From a virus, in IMG/VR virus record IMGVR_UViG_3300020478_002014, positions 1 to 25,906 of that record: a stretch of 25,906 bases of DNA; one strand, written 5' to 3'. A program made the translations under genes and the position numbers. Position 1 is the stretch's first letter. The number at the start of each line of letters is the position of its first letter. Shown here in pieces: positions 4,280 to 11,680 of the stretch. The notes beneath the pieces were generated by a model. It was given only the letters and a program-made list of their open reading frames with translations. It did no database searches and was not told where the DNA came from.

Positions 4280-5923
4280 ATGGCAGACAGCCCGATCCTC
4301 GACCACAACGGCCAACCGTTTAAGAAAAAAGAACTCAGCACCGAGATAGCAAACGCCAGCCTGACCGGCGTGCGCTCCGTCTGGAACTACGGCAGCGAAG
4401 CCGAACACCTCAGCCCCGAGCGTCTGGCCCGCATACTGCGCGATGCCGCCGAAGGCGAGGCCGATGCCTATCTCACGCTCGCCGAAGAAATGGAAGAGCG
4501 CGACCCGCACTATGGCTCAGTGTTGGGCACACGTAAGCGGGCACTGTCCGGCCTGCCGGTCATGGTCGAAGCCGCCACCGACGACACCCACGACGTCACG
4601 CTCGCAGACGCAGTCCGCGAACTGGTGCGCCGCCCCGAATTCGGCGACATGGTCGACGACCTGCTCGATGCCCTGGGCAAAGGCTACAGCGTCGTAGAAA
4701 TTAACTGGGATCTGAAACACTTACCGTGGGAACCGCGCACCCGCAACGAGCGCCAGACCAACGGCGAATGGCGCGAGCGCGAGGCCTACACCTGGCGCGA
4801 TCCGCGTTTCTTTAAATACGATCGGGAGCAGGGCCAGCAGCTGCGCTTAATCGACGAAGCCGACATGCTGAACGGCATCCCGCTGCCGCCGCATCGCTTT
4901 ATCGTGCATCGCCCGCGCCTTAAATCCGGCTTGCCGATCCGTTCTGGCCTAGCCCGTCTGGTCGCGGTTGCTTATATGTGCAAGGCCTATACCGTGACCG
5001 ACTGGATGGCCTTTGCCGAAGTGTTCGGCATGCCGCTGCGTGTGGGTCGCTATGGCCCAGGCGCAAATGAAAACGACATTAATACCCTGATCAACGCCGT
5101 GGCCAATATCGGCACCGATGCCGCTGCAGTGATTCCCGAATCAATGCGCATCGACTTCGAGGCACCCGGCAGCGCCCAGGGCGGCCCGGACATGTTCTTA
5201 AAATTGGCCGAATACCTCGACAAACAGATCAGCAAGGCGGTGCTCGGCCAGACCGCAAGCACCGAAGGCACCCCCGGCAAACTGGGCAGCGACGACGCGC
5301 AAGACGATGTGCGCATGGACATCCTCAAGTCCGACGCCCGTCAGCTCAGCAACACACTGAACAAATACCTGGTGCGTTCGTTTGTCGACCTGAACTGGGG
5401 GCCGCAGGAGCAATACCCACGCATTGAAGTGCAGGCGACCGATCCCGAAGACGTCACCGCCCTGATCGACAACGTCACAAAGTTGATCCCCTACGGCCTC
5501 AAGGTCGAGCGCAGTGTCATGGCCGACAGGCTCGGTCTGCCAGATCCGGCAGACGATGCCGAGCTGCTGCTCGCACCACAGCAGCAGGTAAACCCCGCCC
5601 CCGCACTGAATCATCAGCAGCCCTGCGGCTGCGGTCAGTATCACACCGCACTGAACCAGGACGGCGGCCAGATCAGCACCACAGACAGCGCCCTCGAACA
5701 GTTAGAGGGCGCGGCACTCAGCAACTGGCGCAGCCAGATCGACCCAGTTCTGCAGCCCATCCGCGATCTGCTCGATGCCGTCGACACCGCCGAAGAATTC
5801 GCCGCAGGCCTTGAGGATCTGCTCGACGATATGGACGACACCAACGTCGTGCGCGATCTTGCCGCCGCCATGTTCCTGGCCAATGGTGCAGGAGATGGTG
5901 CGGGCGATGGTTCTGCTGACTGA
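4280..5923 (+). CDS. Portal protein, DUF935 (Mu gp29/H-like)
   Basis: A 547-residue Mu-type portal. Diagnostic stretches include YLTLAEEMEERDPHYGSVLGTRKRA (residues 64-88), the GKGYSVVEINW segment (134-144) and DWMAFAEVFGMPLRVGRY (241-258). It forms the dodecameric ring at the capsid vertex through which DNA passes. The C-terminus carries a Cys-rich turn (PCGCGQYH, 448-455) flanked by two ALN motifs (442-444 and 457-459), then an acidic helical region and a GAGDGAGDGSAD tail. The ALN motifs resemble peptides repeated in the protease and scaffold and may be processing sites. The ribosome site AAGGAG overlaps the terminase stop. The stop overlaps the MuF start (TGATG). Confidence 0.93.
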   Translation: MADSPILDHNGQPFKKKELSTEIANASLTGVRSVWNYGSEAEHLSPERLARILRDAAEGEADAYLTLAEEMEERDPHYGSVLGTRKRALSGLPVMVEAATDDTHDVTLADAVRELVRRPEFGDMVDDLLDALGKGYSVVEINWDLKHLPWEPRTRNERQTNGEWREREAYTWRDPRFFKYDREQGQQLRLIDEADMLNGIPLPPHRFIVHRPRLKSGLPIRSGLARLVAVAYMCKAYTVTDWMAFAEVFGMPLRVGRYGPGANENDINTLINAVANIGTDAAAVIPESMRIDFEAPGSAQGGPDMFLKLAEYLDKQISKAVLGQTASTEGTPGKLGSDDAQDDVRMDILKSDARQLSNTLNKYLVRSFVDLNWGPQEQYPRIEVQATDPEDVTALIDNVTKLIPYGLKVERSVMADRLGLPDPADDAELLLAPQQQVNPAPALNHQQPCGCGQYHTALNQDGGQISTTDSALEQLEGAALSNWRSQIDPVLQPIRDLLDAVDTAEEFAAGLEDLLDDMDDTNVVRDLAAAMFLANGAGDGAGDGSAD

Positions 5924-7446
5924 TGCCTGATTATCGTTTCCCGTCCGAGCCACCCGCAGACGCCCTCAAATGGTTCCGCGCCAAAGGCTTTCAACCAGGC
6001 TTTGACTATCGCGACGTCTGGCAAAGCGAACACGCCCAGGCATTCACCGTCGCCAAAGCCATGCGCATGGACGTCCTGACCACCATTCGCAGCGCCTTCG
6101 ACGAAGCACTGGCCGAGGGCAAAACCCTGCAGCAGTTTCGTGCCGAACTCACACCCACGCTGCAGCGTCTGGGATGGTGGGGCCGCTCTGATGAAATTGA
6201 CCCGGCGACAGGCAATATCGTCGACGTCCAGCTCGGCAGCCCGCGCCGCTTAAAAACCATTTACCGCACCAACATGCGCACAGCTCGCGCCGCCGGTCAG
6301 TGGCAGCGCATCGAACGCCGCAGCATGACGCACCCATACCTGGTCTATGAACTCGGGCCGTCAGAGCAGCATCGCGTGCAACATGTCGGCTGGGCCAGGC
6401 TGATCCTGCCTGCTGATGACCCGTTCTGGTCGACCCATTACCCGCCCAATGGCTGGGGCTGTAAATGCCGCGTGCGTCAGATCACCAGACGGGAAAAAGA
6501 TCGCCTGATGAAAACCGGGCGCTATAGCGACACCGCGCCCCCGATCCGCACGACCGAATACATTAACGACCGCACCGGCGAAGCGATCCAGGTGCCCAAC
6601 GGCATCGACCCCGGCTGGGACTACAACCCCGGCCAGGCACGCGGAGCAGCTGTACAGCAGCACCTGCAGCAAACCGAGAAGGAATTCGCCACCACTATGG
6701 CGAAGCCGGTACCGGCAGAAGGCGTGCAGGTGTTCCCGTCAGATCTCACGTTCAGCACCTGTAAGCACGTCACACAAGACGGCGTGCAACAGATCCTGAC
6801 ACAGATCCCAGGGATCGCACCTCAACTTGAAAAGTTCGCCCGGTATATGGAAGCGCACCCGACTAAAACGCTCTTTTTAAAGCAGACAGAGCAGGGGCGC
6901 GGGCGCAATGCCGATAAGCTCGCCGAACCAGTCGGGCAGTTCCTCGGCATGCCGCCCCGGCAAGCGCGCAGCGCGTACTACATGCCAAATGCAAGACGAG
7001 CCAACGGCTGGACACCGCTGGTGTTCGATTATGTGGTGGTAAAAGCGAAAGCCTCAGATAAGCTGTCTAATATAGATCCTGACATCATGGCCGCCGCTGT
7101 CGACGCTGCGGCGCGTGCCCACGCGGTTGGTGATTCGTCGAGATTCTTCTCTTTACGGGCGACCTATGATGCCCTGGTCGGTGAGTCGCACGCTGGGCTG
7201 GTCAATACCTGGATACATGAAATCGGGCATCAAGTGCATACCTGGGCGGAGCTGCCACAGCCACCGACGACCAAGGCACTTACTCGGTATTCATCTGCAA
7301 ACAGCTATGAATGGCACGCTGAACACTTTACGGCTTGGCTGCTTAACCGTGAACGATTGGCGCAGTGGGATGAAGGCATCGCATTGTACTTTGATAAACT
7401 GATAGAGGATGCGATCCGATCCGATCGCAAACCACCAAACATATGA
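5923..7446 (+). CDS. F: MuF-type minor head protein fused to a metallopeptidase-like domain
   Basis: A 507-residue two-part protein. Residues 1 to about 240 are a phage Mu F-like head morphogenesis domain: FPSEPPADALKWFRAKG at the start, then IYRTNMRTARAAGQW and the hallmark PPNGWGCKCRVRQI with Cys180 and Cys182. MuF proteins sit near the portal inside the head. Residues about 265-507 are not part of that fold. They contain NTWIHEIGHQVH, an HExxH zinc motif at His432-Glu433-His436, and downstream SYEWHAEHFTAWL with Glu467 or Glu463 as third ligand. This pattern resembles gluzincins of the anthrax lethal-factor type (HExGH plus an E..AE.F helix). The 3' part of the gene uses a visibly more AT-rich codon mix. 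It is probably an injected effector or toxin domain, though processing of head proteins is possible. Confidence 0.85.
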   Translation: MPDYRFPSEPPADALKWFRAKGFQPGFDYRDVWQSEHAQAFTVAKAMRMDVLTTIRSAFDEALAEGKTLQQFRAELTPTLQRLGWWGRSDEIDPATGNIVDVQLGSPRRLKTIYRTNMRTARAAGQWQRIERRSMTHPYLVYELGPSEQHRVQHVGWARLILPADDPFWSTHYPPNGWGCKCRVRQITRREKDRLMKTGRYSDTAPPIRTTEYINDRTGEAIQVPNGIDPGWDYNPGQARGAAVQQHLQQTEKEFATTMAKPVPAEGVQVFPSDLTFSTCKHVTQDGVQQILTQIPGIAPQLEKFARYMEAHPTKTLFLKQTEQGRGRNADKLAEPVGQFLGMPPRQARSAYYMPNARRANGWTPLVFDYVVVKAKASDKLSNIDPDIMAAAVDAAARAHAVGDSSRFFSLRATYDALVGESHAGLVNTWIHEIGHQVHTWAELPQPPTTKALTRYSSANSYEWHAEHFTAWLLNRERLAQWDEGIALYFDKLIEDAIRSDRKPPNI

Positions 7447-7673
7447 CACCAACACTCGACGAACTGATCAAACGCAACCAGGCAAGCGCACCCAGCCCCG
7501 CATTCACCAAAGCGCAGCAACTGCTGCGCGCCGATCCAGCGCCTGCAGACCTCGAAGATCAACTGCTGACACTAGAACAGCAAGTCCGCCCGAACGAGCG
7601 CGATCAGTTTGGTGATCTCTGGTCGACCTTCATGCTCACGCACACGCCCACGCTACCCTCTGACGATCAATAA
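7443..7673 (+). CDS. Small unknown protein downstream of MuF
   Basis: A 76-residue acidic protein with no family I recognise. Its ATG overlaps the MuF stop codon (ATGA), so the two are probably co-translated. The sequence is mostly helical, with SPAFTKAQQLLR, DLEDQLLTLEQQV and DQFGDLWSTFML, and has a Pro-rich acidic end. There are no signal peptide, membrane segment or cysteines. Its base composition is phage-like, unlike the genes after it. Two readings are open: a conserved small head-related protein, or a partner or inhibitor of the metallopeptidase-like domain encoded immediately upstream. It is the last gene before the accessory block. Confidence 0.6.
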   Translation: MTPTLDELIKRNQASAPSPAFTKAQQLLRADPAPADLEDQLLTLEQQVRPNERDQFGDLWSTFMLTHTPTLPSDDQ

Positions 7674-7678
7674 AACCT

Positions 7679-7700
7679 AAGCCTCTGTGAGGGTCTTTCT
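7679..7700 (+). terminator. Weak terminator-like hairpin after the MuF pair
   Basis: The arms AAG-CCTC (7679-7685) and GAGG-(GT)-CTT (7689-7697) can pair around a 3-base TGT loop, with a 2-base bulge, and run into a T-rich end (TTTCT). The stem is short and interrupted, so it is at best a weak intrinsic terminator. It sits just after the last phage-like gene and before the accessory genes. Confidence 0.25.
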
Positions 7701-7745
7701 GTGCTCTTATGGCACGGTGGCATGGAATAAAGGCGAAAATGGCTA

Positions 7746-7759
7746 TTAAACGCGTTTAA
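7746..7759. promoter_or_regulatory. 14-bp perfect palindrome, possible operator
   Basis: TTAAACGCGTTTAA is a perfect palindrome within the 218-bp non-coding gap 7674-7891, which otherwise holds no ORF I can support. It lies about 130 bases upstream of the first accessory gene. Its position and symmetry suit a binding site for a dimeric regulator, but no regulator gene is visible in the window. It could also be chance in an AT-rich stretch. Confidence 0.35.
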
Positions 7760-7824
7760 ACGGCAATTTACGGTACTGATCGGCAGGTTTGAGTGTTGTA
7801 ACTGTAAAGAAGACTGTCTGGCCA

Positions 7825-7853
7825 TTGTTTCTATGACCAGTGTTGTGTAAAAC
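7825..7853 (+). promoter_or_regulatory. Weak sigma70-like promoter candidate for the accessory genes
   Basis: TTGTTT (7825-7830) and TAAAAC (7848-7853) are separated by 17 bases and lie about 40 bases upstream of the ATG at 7892. Each box matches the consensus only partly. The support is mainly positional: this is the largest gap in the window and it precedes genes of different composition. Confidence 0.2.
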
Positions 7854-7891
7854 AAGCGGCGACTGACTGAGTACTACCTTAAGGGAATAAG

Positions 7892-8803
7892 ATGGCTTCA
7901 CATACAACTGATAACCCAATCGTCCGTGTAGATATGATCTTAGATGGAGAGGCCTACAAAGATCATGAAATACAAATTTTCACATTTGCACGAGCACTCA
8001 GGGATCTCGGGGATCTACTCTACGACTCAAGTGAAGAGTTAAATGGTGATAGAGATGCGATATCAGTGAAGGTGAACTCCGAGTTTATTGAAGGGTCTTT
8101 CGGGTTTGAAGTACTTGTAGAGCTTCTTCCTCACGCCACTAACGTCGTCGAGTATTTGGGGTTGGCTGGTGCCGCTGGCAGTAGTGCCGGAGGCCTGTTT
8201 GGGGTGCTGAAGTGGCTGAAGGGAGAAAAAATACAGTCAATATCTGAACTAACTGATGAGAAGAGCGAAAAGCGTCAAAGTGTGATCACTGATAAAAAAG
8301 GACGCACACTGAAGGTGCCGGAGCAGGTGGCGCGCCTAGCCGGGAGTCGTACCGTGCGCCGGAAGACTGATGACCTGATCAGGGGAGCTCTATTGACTGA
8401 GGGCACCTCAATACTCAAGTTTAAAGCGAAAAAATCAGGTGATGAAATAGAAGGTGAGAATAACCTGCCACCTGATCTGGTTCTCGATCATGAAGATACG
8501 GTCTCTTTCGCGGCCTTACGTCAAAAAGAGCTCTTAGACGAAAGTTATTCGTCGGAAGAGACTACTGTGAAGTTCATTTCCGCTACAATTAAAGGCAGGT
8601 CTGGCTGGAAAGTTGAAAGGTTGGGTAAAGAATATCCAGTGAAGATGGAAGATGAGCTATTCATAGAGAGACTTAAGTACTCAGATGATGCTCAAGTGTT
8701 TGGTAGGTCGTTCCATGTTCGTTTTGGTACTAGAAAAAGAATTAGTGGCGGCAAGGAATCCGTCACGTATGAAATTGAGAAGGTATTCTACGAAAAAAAG
8801 TAG
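7892..8803 (+). CDS. Unknown 303-residue accessory protein
   Basis: I do not recognise a named family. Residues 10-80 (VRVDMILDGEAYKDHEIQIF, then FARALRDLGDLL, then EELNGDRDAISVKV and FIEGSFGFEV) look like a compact alpha/beta domain. A Gly/Ala-rich hydrophobic segment follows (LGLAGAAGSSAGGLFGVLKWL, about 89-109), which could enter or touch a membrane. The rest is charged, with a likely beta-rich C-terminal domain (225-300). There is no signal peptide. The start follows an AAGGGA ribosome site. Codon use is clearly more AT-rich than in the flanking head genes, which suggests separate acquisition. It appears to be the first gene of a three-gene unit with two small hydrophobic proteins. A phage-exclusion or host-modifying cargo role is possible but not shown. 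Confidence 0.75.
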   Translation: MASHTTDNPIVRVDMILDGEAYKDHEIQIFTFARALRDLGDLLYDSSEELNGDRDAISVKVNSEFIEGSFGFEVLVELLPHATNVVEYLGLAGAAGSSAGGLFGVLKWLKGEKIQSISELTDEKSEKRQSVITDKKGRTLKVPEQVARLAGSRTVRRKTDDLIRGALLTEGTSILKFKAKKSGDEIEGENNLPPDLVLDHEDTVSFAALRQKELLDESYSSEETTVKFISATIKGRSGWKVERLGKEYPVKMEDELFIERLKYSDDAQVFGRSFHVRFGTRKRISGGKESVTYEIEKVFYEKK

Positions 8804-8824
8804 GTTGTTAGAGGAGGCGATGGT

Positions 8825-9058
8825 ATGGAAAATGTACTGCTTATAGCCAGTGTTATTATTGTTTTCTTTGCTAGTTTCTACCTCGTGGCGAAGATAGTTT
8901 TCTTCTGCCTTACATTCTTTTTGGGAACCAATTACACGCTAGTCATACACGACGAGAATGGTAAGACAAAAAAAATCAGACGACGGATAACGAATGATGC
9001 TGAGTTTGATAGTTTTGTAGACGAGTACGTAAATAAGGAAGGAAAGCTAATAGAATGA
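8825..9058 (+). CDS. Small membrane protein of the accessory unit
   Basis: A 77-residue protein of no recognised family. Residues 4-34 are almost entirely hydrophobic (VLLIASVIIVFFASFYLVAK, then IVFFCLTFFLG), enough for one long or two tightly packed membrane helices. The remaining 40 residues are polar, with a basic patch (KTKKIRRR) and an acidic end, so they probably face the cytoplasm. A strong GGAGG ribosome site (8813-8817) precedes the ATG. The gene is AT-rich like its upstream neighbour. Its stop overlaps the next ATG. Confidence 0.7.
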   Translation: MENVLLIASVIIVFFASFYLVAKIVFFCLTFFLGTNYTLVIHDENGKTKKIRRRITNDAEFDSFVDEYVNKEGKLIE

Positions 9059-9402
9059 CCCAAGAAAGTAGCTTGGCGAAGTCTGCAGGCAAAGGAACTG
9101 CTCGCGTAGCGATTGCTAGCGCTTTTGCCGCTCTCTATGCTTATTTACTTCAGGGTAATCTTGATGCCAAAGAGCTTATTACTCCCGCCGCATCTGCGCT
9201 AGGCATCATTACAAGTGAAATAGGCAATTGGTGTAACAAAGCATTTAGTGTAGATCCACGGAGGGTTAAGTTGGGAGTAATCGCTAGCTTGAGGCTTCGA
9301 CGTTTAAAAAAGCTGATGTCTGACCCCGGTGTTAATGATGCAACCAGAGAGAAGCTACAAGAAAAGTACCAGAAAATAATTTTGGTAAAAGCAGATCTCT
9401 AA
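9055..9402 (+). CDS. Unknown 115-residue accessory protein
   Basis: No family is recognised. The N-terminal half has two moderately hydrophobic helices (about residues 17-33, RVAIASAFAALYAYLLQ, and 41-55, ELITPAASALGIITS). The C-terminal half is basic and helical (RRVKLGVIASLRLRRLKKLM), then KLQEKYQKI. The protein may be membrane-associated. Its ATG overlaps the stop of the small membrane protein (ATGA), so the two are translationally coupled and probably act together. Composition is AT-rich, as for the rest of this unit. Confidence 0.7.
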   Translation: MTQESSLAKSAGKGTARVAIASAFAALYAYLLQGNLDAKELITPAASALGIITSEIGNWCNKAFSVDPRRVKLGVIASLRLRRLKKLMSDPGVNDATREKLQEKYQKIILVKADL

Positions 9403-9420
9403 CTTTAAATAAGGGAGTAG

Positions 9421-9939
9421 ATGTTGAAAGGATTCTCACTCACTCAACTGCTGGGCATGATTCTAATCGTCGCTGCCGTCGCCATCTTCGCCGGTATTCC
9501 AGCGCTCCAGGACATAGCCGAAAAGCCCGATCCGGTCACACCCGCAATCACAACTACCGCCACCAGTGATGACGAAGTCACGCAGCTGAATACCGCCGAT
9601 CTGTTACTGCAGGAATGCCCCGGCCTGGTAACGCACGGCGCAGACATCAAAGAGATCCGCATGACCCAGGGTGCCGCCAGTCTGACAGCCCAGCGCGAAA
9701 AACAATGGCAAACAGCGGTCAAAGCCACCGCGATCGTTAATGAAACAGTCACCAGCGCCCCGCAGCAATCAGCCGATCATCATTGCGAATACGAAGTTGG
9801 TATGACGCCGCTCGGCGAATACGGTTTTTACTGGAGCAAGGCGGTGTGTGCAGACCTCTGCGGTGTAAACGCCAATGGTCAGCGGTACGGCTACCACCTA
9901 ATCATGCACAGCATTGCGAGTGAAGAGGCCGCGCAATGA
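9421..9939 (+). CDS. Unknown membrane-anchored protein, cysteine-containing
   Basis: A 172-residue protein with a single N-terminal hydrophobic segment (residues 8-28, TQLLGMILIVAAVAIFAGIPA), a Thr/Asp-rich linker and a C-terminal domain carrying Cys66, Cys122, Cys143 and Cys147. It is most likely anchored in the inner membrane with a disulfide-bearing periplasmic domain. I do not recognise a family. The ribosome site AAGGGAG directly precedes the ATG. Unlike the three genes before it, the base composition is phage-like. Its stop overlaps the start of the next gene, which also encodes a membrane-anchored protein. Superinfection exclusion or envelope modification fits the topology but is only inference. 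Confidence 0.7.
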   Translation: MLKGFSLTQLLGMILIVAAVAIFAGIPALQDIAEKPDPVTPAITTTATSDDEVTQLNTADLLLQECPGLVTHGADIKEIRMTQGAASLTAQREKQWQTAVKATAIVNETVTSAPQQSADHHCEYEVGMTPLGEYGFYWSKAVCADLCGVNANGQRYGYHLIMHSIASEEAAQ

Positions 9940-10574
9940 CGGCGGAAGTGGAAGCAGCTAAAGAATTCGCGTTTAGTCTTAATGATCTATTGACCGGGCT
10001 TGCGGTACTTCTATCTTTGATTGCGATTTATGTTTCGCACTTTATGCGCTGGAGTAAAATAACTATCGCTCCAGCATTGACTCCCGAATCATTCACAACG
10101 GTGGGAAAGACTAAAGCTAGGTTCGCGGATAATTCTCAAGAAATTACAAAAGCCACGCTAGCCGTGAATTATGATCTGCTGGCATTTGCAACGGGAAATG
10201 CCTCTGTATTATTAGAATCTGTATCTCTGGTGCCGGACGACGATGCTATAGACAGGAGACGCTGGCCCGGCTGCAAAATCTCTGAAAGTTTAACGGCGGA
10301 CTCTGTGTCTGTTTTTAAAATGCAGATAAGGGGTGACGATATAAGTTCAAGACCGGAGCTACACGTCACCGACTTAAATGATGAGGTGTATGAATTTACG
10401 TTTAATGCAGATATATACACGCCTGACGGTCATTGCAAAAAAGTGGTGATACCGGTGAAAGTTTTTTTAATGAAGACAGGAAATGTCGAAAAAGTAGAGT
10501 GCTCCCGTTTTACTTTAAAATACCGCTCGCCGATACTGCCGCCCGGTCTTAAAGAATTCTTTACCGGCAAGTAA
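9936..10574 (+). CDS. Unknown 212-residue protein with N-terminal membrane helix
   Basis: No family is recognised. One membrane helix (about residues 18-36, LLTGLAVLLSLIAIYVSHF) is followed by a roughly 175-residue domain that looks mainly beta-stranded, with alternating strands such as ATLAVNYDLLAF, ASVLLESVSLVP and VYEFTFNADIYTP. It has no lipobox or clear cleavage site. The ATG overlaps the previous stop (ATGA). The gene is AT-richer than the head genes. It is the last gene of the accessory block, 56 bases before the protease gene. Confidence 0.7.
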   Translation: MTAEVEAAKEFAFSLNDLLTGLAVLLSLIAIYVSHFMRWSKITIAPALTPESFTTVGKTKARFADNSQEITKATLAVNYDLLAFATGNASVLLESVSLVPDDDAIDRRRWPGCKISESLTADSVSVFKMQIRGDDISSRPELHVTDLNDEVYEFTFNADIYTPDGHCKKVVIPVKVFLMKTGNVEKVECSRFTLKYRSPILPPGLKEFFTGK

Positions 10575-10630: not shown

Positions 10631-11680
10631 ATGAAAACACCAAACGCCCTTTATACCGCGCTCAACTCAGAAGCCGCACCGCAGATGGCGGAACAGCCGC
10701 ACCTGCTCGATGCGCTCTGCTTTGAACTGTCAGACGACGGCAGCATCCCCGAATGGGTGCCGCTGATCCCTGTCGGCACATTCACGGGCCGCGACGGGCG
10801 CACCTGGCACAACAATCAGCCAGACAATGTCATCCAGCTGACCACTGCCAGCAACCGCGAGCAGCCCCTCGACTGGGAGCACAGCACCGAATTGAAACGC
10901 CCCAAAGGCGAAGAAGCCCCAGCGGCTGGCTGGTTTACCGACTACCGCATCAACAATGGTCACATCGAGGGCCGCCTCGAATTTACCCCGCGCGGTCTGA
11001 AGTCCGTTCAGAACCGCGAATACCGCTATCTGTCGCCCGTGTTTCGCTACGACAGCGCAGGCAACGTCTACGACATCCGCAGCGCGGGCCTGACCAATAT
11101 GCACAACCTGCTGCTGCCTGCTCTGAATCAGGAGCAACACGATCACGCCCACTTAACCCCAGATCAGGAGTCCACCGACATGGATCTCAAAGCACTGCTG
11201 GCCGCAATTGCGACCGCCCTCAATACTGAAATCACCAGCCCAGAACAGGCGCTCGACGCAATCAAACAGCAGGCGACCGATCTGCAGACCGCGCTCAACA
11301 CCGAACGCCAGCCGGATCTGGCGTCCTATGTGCCGGTCGATACCCACAACCAGGCGCTGCAGCGTGCCCAGAACGCCGAGCAGGAACTCAGCAACCATCT
11401 AGCCACTGCACGCAATGCCGAGATCGACACCGCCATCGACGACGCCGTTGCTGCAGGCAAGATCGCTCCAAGCAATAAAGAGTTTTACCGCACCGCCTGC
11501 AACAGCGAAGACGGCCTGGCGAACTTCCGCAAGTTCGTCGCCAGCGCGCCAGTGATCGCCCCCGAGTCCAACCTCGACGGCAAAAAGGTCACAAACCACA
11601 AAACCGCACTCAACAGCGAAGAGCAGGCGCTGGCCGACATGTTCGGCAACACCGCCGAAGATCTCGCCAAGTACGCATAA
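10631..11680 (+). CDS. I: Head maturation protease with C-terminal scaffold (Mu I-like)
   Basis: A 349-residue Mu-type protease-scaffold. The N-terminal protease spans residues 20 to about 165: WVPLIPVGTFTGRDGRTW, then PLDWEHST with His84, and YRYLSPVF with Ser135 as candidate catalytic residues. The C-terminal part from about residue 184 is a helical scaffold rich in Ala, Gln and Asp. A peptide of the form TALN(S/T)E recurs at residues 9-14, 195-200, 220-225 and 325-330, with variants at 164-168 and 288-293. These may be self-cleavage sites. The ATG has no obvious Shine-Dalgarno and is preceded by a hairpin; no in-frame start lies between it and the stop codon at 10604. The protease would process scaffold and portal during head maturation. 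Confidence 0.9.
   Translation: MKTPNALYTALNSEAAPQMAEQPHLLDALCFELSDDGSIPEWVPLIPVGTFTGRDGRTWHNNQPDNVIQLTTASNREQPLDWEHSTELKRPKGEEAPAAGWFTDYRINNGHIEGRLEFTPRGLKSVQNREYRYLSPVFRYDSAGNVYDIRSAGLTNMHNLLLPALNQEQHDHAHLTPDQESTDMDLKALLAAIATALNTEITSPEQALDAIKQQATDLQTALNTERQPDLASYVPVDTHNQALQRAQNAEQELSNHLATARNAEIDTAIDDAVAAGKIAPSNKEFYRTACNSEDGLANFRKFVASAPVIAPESNLDGKKVTNHKTALNSEEQALADMFGNTAEDLAKYA
11180..11680 (+). CDS. Z: Nested in-frame scaffold protein (Mu Z-like)
   Basis: An internal ATG at 11180 lies in the same frame as the protease (its Met184) and is preceded by AGGAG at 11166-11170, nine bases away. It would yield a 166-residue protein beginning MDLKALLAAIATALNTE, consisting only of the helical scaffold part. 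Mu makes its scaffold in the same way, from a gene nested in phase in the 3' end of the protease gene. The ribosome site here is much better than that of the full-length protease, which fits a scaffold needed in far greater amounts. Confidence 0.75.
   Translation: MDLKALLAAIATALNTEITSPEQALDAIKQQATDLQTALNTERQPDLASYVPVDTHNQALQRAQNAEQELSNHLATARNAEIDTAIDDAVAAGKIAPSNKEFYRTACNSEDGLANFRKFVASAPVIAPESNLDGKKVTNHKTALNSEEQALADMFGNTAEDLAKYA

Follow-up and report, generated by a model that had tools for sequence, protein, structure and literature searches.

Polymorphic toxins that carry a MuF head-protein domain have been described, 20% of 191 putative MuF toxins having a metallopeptidase domain (Jamet et al., 2017; PMC5576092; this and the other papers cited are represented by parts of their text). 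An open reading frame (ORF) of <150 aa followed 89.4% of the 191 toxin genes vs 25.5% of 952 short MuF genes, and injection of the toxins was put forward as a hypothesis (PMC5576092). In Bxa/Bsi (PMC11699363) and Apk2/IapK (PMC12226406) a MuF-fused toxin, the enzymes being an ADP-ribosyltransferase and a (p)ppApp synthetase, is accompanied by an adjacent small gene encoding a toxin-binding inhibitor. Peptidases like that of anthrax lethal factor are known as a polymorphic toxin domain, Tox-ALFMetallopeptidase, with Photorhabdus virulence cassette (PVC) and type II secretion system (T2SS) delivery, in other phyla and with Imm-SuFu immunity (Zhang et al., 2012; PMC3482391). The gene analyzed here is an ORF of 507 aa with an ATG start at positions 5923-7446 of a 25,906-nucleotide stretch, hereafter the window, of IMG/VR virus record IMGVR_UViG_3300020478_002014 (positions 1 to 25,906). 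It encodes a MuF head protein ending in a predicted lethal-factor-type metallopeptidase, and a small gene (7443-7673) follows it. The protein is probably a MuF-type polymorphic effector of a temperate Mu-like phage, with a lethal-factor-type protease fold, delivery from the head and a cognate inhibitor. The initial annotation had described a lethal-factor-like peptidase on a MuF protein and suggested its injection with the DNA; the observation was confirmed and the interpretation supported.

The locus shares with the MuF polymorphic toxins of PMC5576092 a MuF half encoded beside the portal gene, a variable C-terminal effector, a temperate phage and a small ORF behind. Those toxins are over-represented in Firmicutes, whereas the hosts named in the genome scan here were nearly all Gammaproteobacteria. 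The parts of that text drawn on do not specify the kinds of metallopeptidase, and they include a Ct_MAD domain of Proteobacteria. The arrangement is also that of Bxa/Bsi and Apk2/IapK, but with a predicted protease domain as the enzyme. The likeness to Tox-ALFMetallopeptidase is in the use of a lethal-factor-like peptidase as a toxin domain, which in the portions of PMC3482391 represented here is linked neither to MuF nor to gammaproteobacteria. Phage Mu F (gp30) is the same kind of MuF head protein; its C-terminus is a probably inactive PBECR domain (PMC5512222), unlike the peptidase. MuF-metallopeptidase fusions (2017) and lethal-factor-like peptidases among polymorphic toxins (2012) are therefore already known from these texts. 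As far as literature searches show, the lethal-factor-type assignment for this MuF family is new, although an earlier listing in a supplementary table is possible, and so is the linked, co-diverging small protein family. Searches for lethal-factor-like or ATLF peptidases with phages gave the 2012 survey (PMC3482391) as the only relevant match, those for MuF peptidases gave papers naming no target in the parts represented here, and those for a Mu-like phage minor head protein with an injected metalloprotease gave nothing relevant.

The N-terminal half is a MuF head protein, as first proposed: PF04233 was matched at 57 bits against a curated cut-off of 29.6, and a Mu-type portal gene adjoins it directly upstream. 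In the whole protein the phrog_220 match spanned residues 8-481; when the halves were searched apart, the MuF half alone matched. The 3' part of the gene, which had been seen to be AT-richer, has a GC content of 0.556 (0.607 at third codon positions, GC3) in codons 251-507 compared with 0.620 (GC3 0.720) in codons 1-250. Values for the portal gene were 0.618 (GC3 0.744) and for the small gene 0.583 (GC3 0.618), the GC3 of the latter being close to that of the peptidase half. The lower GC of the C-terminal half agrees with a cassette of other origin, without proving it.

A model of the C-terminal domain was generated with AlphaFold2 from an alignment of 52 sequences (mean pLDDT 94.1, pTM 0.92). 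With VIA-align, lethal factor ranked first (top 23 rows, Z 9.6-11.2), followed by 22 rows of Pro-Pro endopeptidases (Z 8.5-9.5); lethal factor 4dv8 aligned with the model at 3.7 Å over 166 residues with 16% identity, covering chain residues 568-776. The first 30 rows of Foldseek held only lethal factor and Pro-Pro endopeptidase groups with weak E-values (best 0.026), and for this reason the fold assignment is based on VIA-align, the profile match and the zinc site. A profile search with the domain alone, which had been suggested, gave no direct Pfam, PHROG or PDB sequence match of use for the window domain. The profile of the family reached lethal factor in the PDB, the six best entries having E-values of 5e-5 (2l0r) to 0.007 (1j7n, 0.0067), and CapP at E 0.048. 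An FF_PRPF40A match of the window domain (E 0.026) was set aside, being weak and spanning the helix of the second motif. A lethal-factor-type metallopeptidase fold for the C-terminal half is supported by the predicted model, which best matches the lethal factor catalytic domain, and by the profile alignment of the zinc residues. The predicted fold and zinc site are those of the lethal factor catalytic domain and the Pro-Pro endopeptidases; unlike lethal factor, the domain is fused to a MuF head domain, presumably travels in a phage head and has only ∼16% identity to it.

Both parts of the zinc signature were found at the positions first given, HEIGH at residues 432-436 and SYEWHAEHFTAWL at 461-473. 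In the family-profile alignment His432, Glu433 and His436 fall on lethal factor residues 686, 687 and 690, and Glu463 and Glu467 on residues 735 and 739. The aligned lethal factor residues are taken to have their zinc-site roles, Glu735 presumably being a ligand. The initial annotation had named Glu463 or Glu467 as the third ligand; judged from the alignment, Glu463, at the position of lethal factor 735, is the likely one and Glu467, although invariant, is not. All six site residues (His432, Glu433, His436, Tyr456, Glu463 and Glu467) were invariant in 103/103 distinct sequences, the window's included, as were Gly362 and Thr364, and the median pairwise identity of the domain was 34% (92 loci). 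Most of the 103 sequences had been fetched by site motifs and the bias was checked separately: HExGH was kept in 29/29 sequences matching the second search pattern only and the second motif in 47/47 matching the first pattern only, while 26 sequences matched both patterns and one matched neither. Searches with only a MuF half as query brought in 33 peptidase loci (6 with the window's, 27 with that of Pseudoalteromonas phage HS6), 32 of which have the strictly spaced motif. The exception, L187, has a longer spacing in its second motif. When residues 251-507 were shuffled 20,000 times, 320 of the shuffled sequences contained HExxH alone and 6 the two-part motif; conservation is the stronger test of the motif.

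The window's MuF half was used as a query and C-terminal lengths were measured from the position that corresponds to residue 250. The best 80 of at least 599 loci were 51-81% identical to the query; among them 50 end ≤26 aa past the MuF region, 20 bear one other C-terminal cluster (no Pfam name in the 5 scanned), 6 bear the peptidase and 4 bear single tails. The single tails include a PBECR2 nuclease (L148, E 2.5e-31) and those of L133 and L134, which are different again. MuF halves 60-65% identical to the window's bear different C-termini. With the HS6 MuF half as query, 77 loci comprised 27 with the peptidase, 45 with other C-termini, 2 short and 3 cut, and the same peptidase domain was found on distant MuF backbones (L009, L010 and L014). 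Judged by these sequence comparisons, the peptidase domain is an optional cassette and not a part of the head; it is not the plain structural part of all Mu-like F proteins that had first been considered as an alternative. At L124 (4001-5527) a MuF half 64% identical to the window's carries a different HExxH (HELAH) domain, which keeps the Tyr-Glu-Ala-Glu spacing and has a faint ATLF match (E 0.06), and appears to represent a second peptidase type on the same MuF backbone.

The whole protein matched 294 phage records, 3 of them over ≥80% of its length. Relatives of the C-terminal half were found in phage HS6 and Vibrio phage ZX4290 and in Mu-like prophages carried by Aeromonas plasmids. The genome collection contributed 32 loci and IMG/VR 180 stretches, of which 80 were used. 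A scan of 121 loci on one strand gave a domain-bearing ORF in 119, those without being L001 (the window's own locus) and L047. The domain was always the C-terminal end of its ORF, with ≤8 residues behind it in the 119 ORFs (4 of which end at a contig edge), and the front part matched the window or HS6 MuF half, of Mu type, in 115/119. In L009 and L014, the latter a cyanophage, the MuF domain is a distant one (PF04233 E 2e-14 and 3e-15), L010 equals L009 in ORF length and scores, and L088 is cut. The domain is rare in the sampled genomes, occurring in 2/93 relatives and 2/369 genomes of the class, the window's own genome being in both counts. The ATLF profile matched in 5/274 genomes of the class, 1 above the cut-off.

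Two further observations concern these relatives. L013 and L015 hold a MuF-peptidase of this kind within a Mu-like prophage carried by Aeromonas plasmids; one plasmid copy shares its stretch with a Qnr-family gene and another plasmid's copy is annotated in pieces. In a genome of the same class an ATLF-profile match (L285 1384-2223, minus strand) is a stand-alone protein of 279 aa with HExxH and a downstream Tyr/Glu motif, which resembles an MtfA-type peptidase.

The small gene at 7443-7673 is not mentioned in the initial annotation. An iterated profile was seeded with it and homologues were sought at the MuF stop. One was found beside 115/124 peptidase loci, the window included (120/124 have any ORF of ≥35 aa there), and at 0/74 non-peptidase loci (32/74 have such an ORF); in the latter none was found further downstream either, among ORFs of ≥40 aa in the available DNA. 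Among loci obtained with the HS6 half the partner was present in 26/27 peptidase loci vs 0/47 others, the 3 cut loci also being without it; in 8 of the 26 the start of the partner ORF was called 75 nt before the MuF stop. A few contigs are counted in both sets, which yielded 86 distinct small proteins. With two unmatched ones added by hand, these have a median length of 68 aa and a median net charge of −9. The partner is also present at L009, on a distant MuF backbone. The window's small protein is modelled as four helices (pLDDT 83.4), a fold search with it gave no match under E 1, and tblastn of the protein against phages gave no match.

Distances were compared across 92 distinct sets, each made up of a MuF half, a peptidase and a small protein, leaving out cut loci, MuF halves of <180 aa, L009, L010 and L014. 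The partial r between small protein and peptidase given MuF was 0.81, and that between small protein and MuF given peptidase was −0.17. In 51 dereplicated sets the values were 0.59 (0/5000 permutations as high) and −0.07; within backbone groups, without permutations, they were 0.45 and 0.03 (10 sets) and 0.62 and −0.03 (41 sets). The divergence of the small protein follows the peptidase, not MuF. At L187 the partner (5503-6144) is a version of 213 aa, three tandem copies by eye, with no Pfam match.

In the 369 genomes of the class one further partner homologue was found (genome G396; L284 1453-1695, minus strand), and the 9 kb around it contained neither peptidase nor MuF sequence; an orphan inhibitor gene is possible. 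A gene for a RecQ-like helicase precedes it, and a reverse-transcriptase-like ORF is ∼1-2 kb away, both named by eye. The chances are a little short of even that the family of 7443-7673 consists of dedicated, previously unrecognised protein inhibitors of lethal-factor-fold metallopeptidases, that the pair moves between distant MuF backbones as one cassette and that orphan chromosomal copies such as that of L284 protect against incoming phages.

If the protein is a head-delivered effector, its MuF half would place a few copies at the portal inside the head, and the C-terminal zinc metallopeptidase, with the fold and site of lethal factor and the Pro-Pro endopeptidases, would exit the head along with the DNA and cleave a single protein or a small number of them in the cell just infected, with a probably toxic outcome. 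The small acidic helical partner would be made together with it by translational coupling and would most likely bind the peptidase and keep it in check in the phage-building cell. The published MuF toxins match this mechanism for toxicity and inhibition; injection is a hypothesis there too. Such a pair would be a phage weapon or tool delivered with the DNA, its safety-catch gene probably adjoining, and as a two-gene cassette with a clear active site it makes the idea of MuF peptidases directly testable. Were the small protein an inhibitor, it would show how phages restrain such proteases.

An overlapping sub-case of this effector reading is an injected counter-defence or lysogeny-control protease, which would remove a host defence protein or a repressor, such as that of a rival prophage, on entry. 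It would have the same anatomy, and weakly toxic MuF peptidases may guide the choice between lysis and lysogeny or resist host defence (Jamet et al., PMC5576092). Weak similarity to CapP (E 0.021 and 0.048) points the same way; these matches are, however, short stretches around the zinc motifs, and a linked inhibitor in the producing cell better suits a generally harmful peptidase, leaving the narrower role rather unlikely although the best placed of the alternatives.

Improbable by comparison is a head-maturation or self-processing peptidase that cuts MuF or other head proteins, with the small gene encoding an assembly chaperone or timing factor. The gene does lie among head genes, autoproteolysis has been proposed for some phage-carried metallopeptidases (PMC5512222), and a small chaperone would co-diverge with its client too. 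However, a separate head protease of Mu type is already encoded by the phage, 50 of the best 80 of the MuF relatives do without such a domain, and the few residues behind the domain in the 119 ORFs mean that nothing there needs release.

For the small gene it might be argued that it is an ordinary head-operon gene, tied to the peptidase by shared ancestry only, as the named organisms are nearly all Gammaproteobacteria and the loci are consequently not independent. The gene was nevertheless undetected downstream in all 74 non-peptidase loci, including some whose MuF halves are 60-65% identical to the window's, is found beside the L009 peptidase on its distant backbone, and shows no residual correlation with MuF after allowing for the peptidase, which makes this account distinctly improbable. 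A degenerate relic, or a structural part merely resembling a peptidase, would fit the want of a useful direct sequence match for the window domain and is very improbable given six site residues kept throughout the 103 sequences at 34% median identity and a domain missing from most of the best 80 MuF homologues.

Several results weigh against a head-delivered effector with a cognate inhibitor. The window domain has no Pfam ATLF (PF07737) match and the relatives that match stay below the cut-off, the best being L009 with 21.3 bits vs 27.4; as the curated score is not reached, the domain is called lethal-factor-type in fold and site and is not filed as a member. The linkage counts take in copies of the same phage. 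No partner was detected at nine of the 124 peptidase loci: at 4 there is no ORF of ≥35 aa, and L014, L031, L107, L108 and L187 have an ORF unmatched by the profile, four of which look similar by eye. The opposite median charges of the pair (+9 and −8.5) fail for the window's own pair (−1 and −6). No promoter-like site was seen on the + strand of 5600-9500, which is weak evidence; from this and the overlap with the head gene the partner is expected to guard the lytic cell and not the resting lysogen, which may be left unprotected if the partner is made only with the late genes. At L280 a divergent MuF-peptidase (277-1791, PF04233 E 7.5e-14) is without the usual partner and has in its place a different ORF of 54 aa with several cysteines (1788-1952).

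The window corresponds to G000:C10:310741-336646 (minus strand) in a genome of 3.97 Mb and holds the late half of a Mu-like phage. A family scan of 10 window ORFs gave, among others, an endolysin, a DksA-like protein, the small terminase subunit, the major head protein, tail sheath, tape measure and baseplate hub; large terminase, portal and Mu-type head protease are also encoded (Pfam). In the flanking DNA, Pfam matches identified a MuA-like transposase (Mu-transpos_C, E 5.1e-20, with rve and a Mu DNA-binding domain) and an adjacent AAA ATPase, together with an S24/HTH repressor and the activator Mor. Because these genes stand beside the window, the phage is classed, by sequence, as a temperate, transposable Mu-like prophage. 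A PF02914 search of its own genome for the Mu transposase was empty, and the controls of that search gave no match either. Features of the window are collected in the table.

Table. Features of the MuF-peptidase locus and related head genes, in window coordinates
Feature	Position	Strand	Evidence
Mu-type portal gene	4280..5923	+	PF06074 E 2.3e-101; directly upstream of MuF gene
MuF half, residues 1-250	5923..6672	+	phrog_220 E 2.4e-88, half alone
MuF domain PF04233, residues 54-184	6082-6474	+	E 3.9e-15
C-terminal lethal-factor-type metallopeptidase domain (predicted), residues 258-507	6694..7443	+	Predicted model, profile match
HEIGH, residues 432-436, first zinc-site part	7216..7230	+	H432, E433, G435, H436 each 103/103
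Tyr456	7288..7290	+	103/103; aligned with lethal factor 728
EWHAE, residues 463-467	7309..7323	+	E463, A466, E467 each 103/103
Small acidic helical protein, 76 aa, candidate cognate inhibitor / immunity protein	7443-7673	+	4-nt ATGA overlap with MuF stop
Mu-type head protease	10631-11680		PF10123 E 1e-52

Between the small gene and the head protease, an AT-rich patch at ∼7600-9550 (300-base windows, GC 0.39-0.51) holds a LAPAL gene and two ORFs without clear matches. Two ORFs of 172 and 212 aa lie at 9421-10574, between the patch and the head protease, with no Pfam, PHROG or NCBIfam match up to E 1. The LAPAL gene (7892-8803) belongs to a putative phage structural family (NF053583, E 2e-43) and also matches the PADLOC candidate defence model PDC-S42 (E 1.5e-26).

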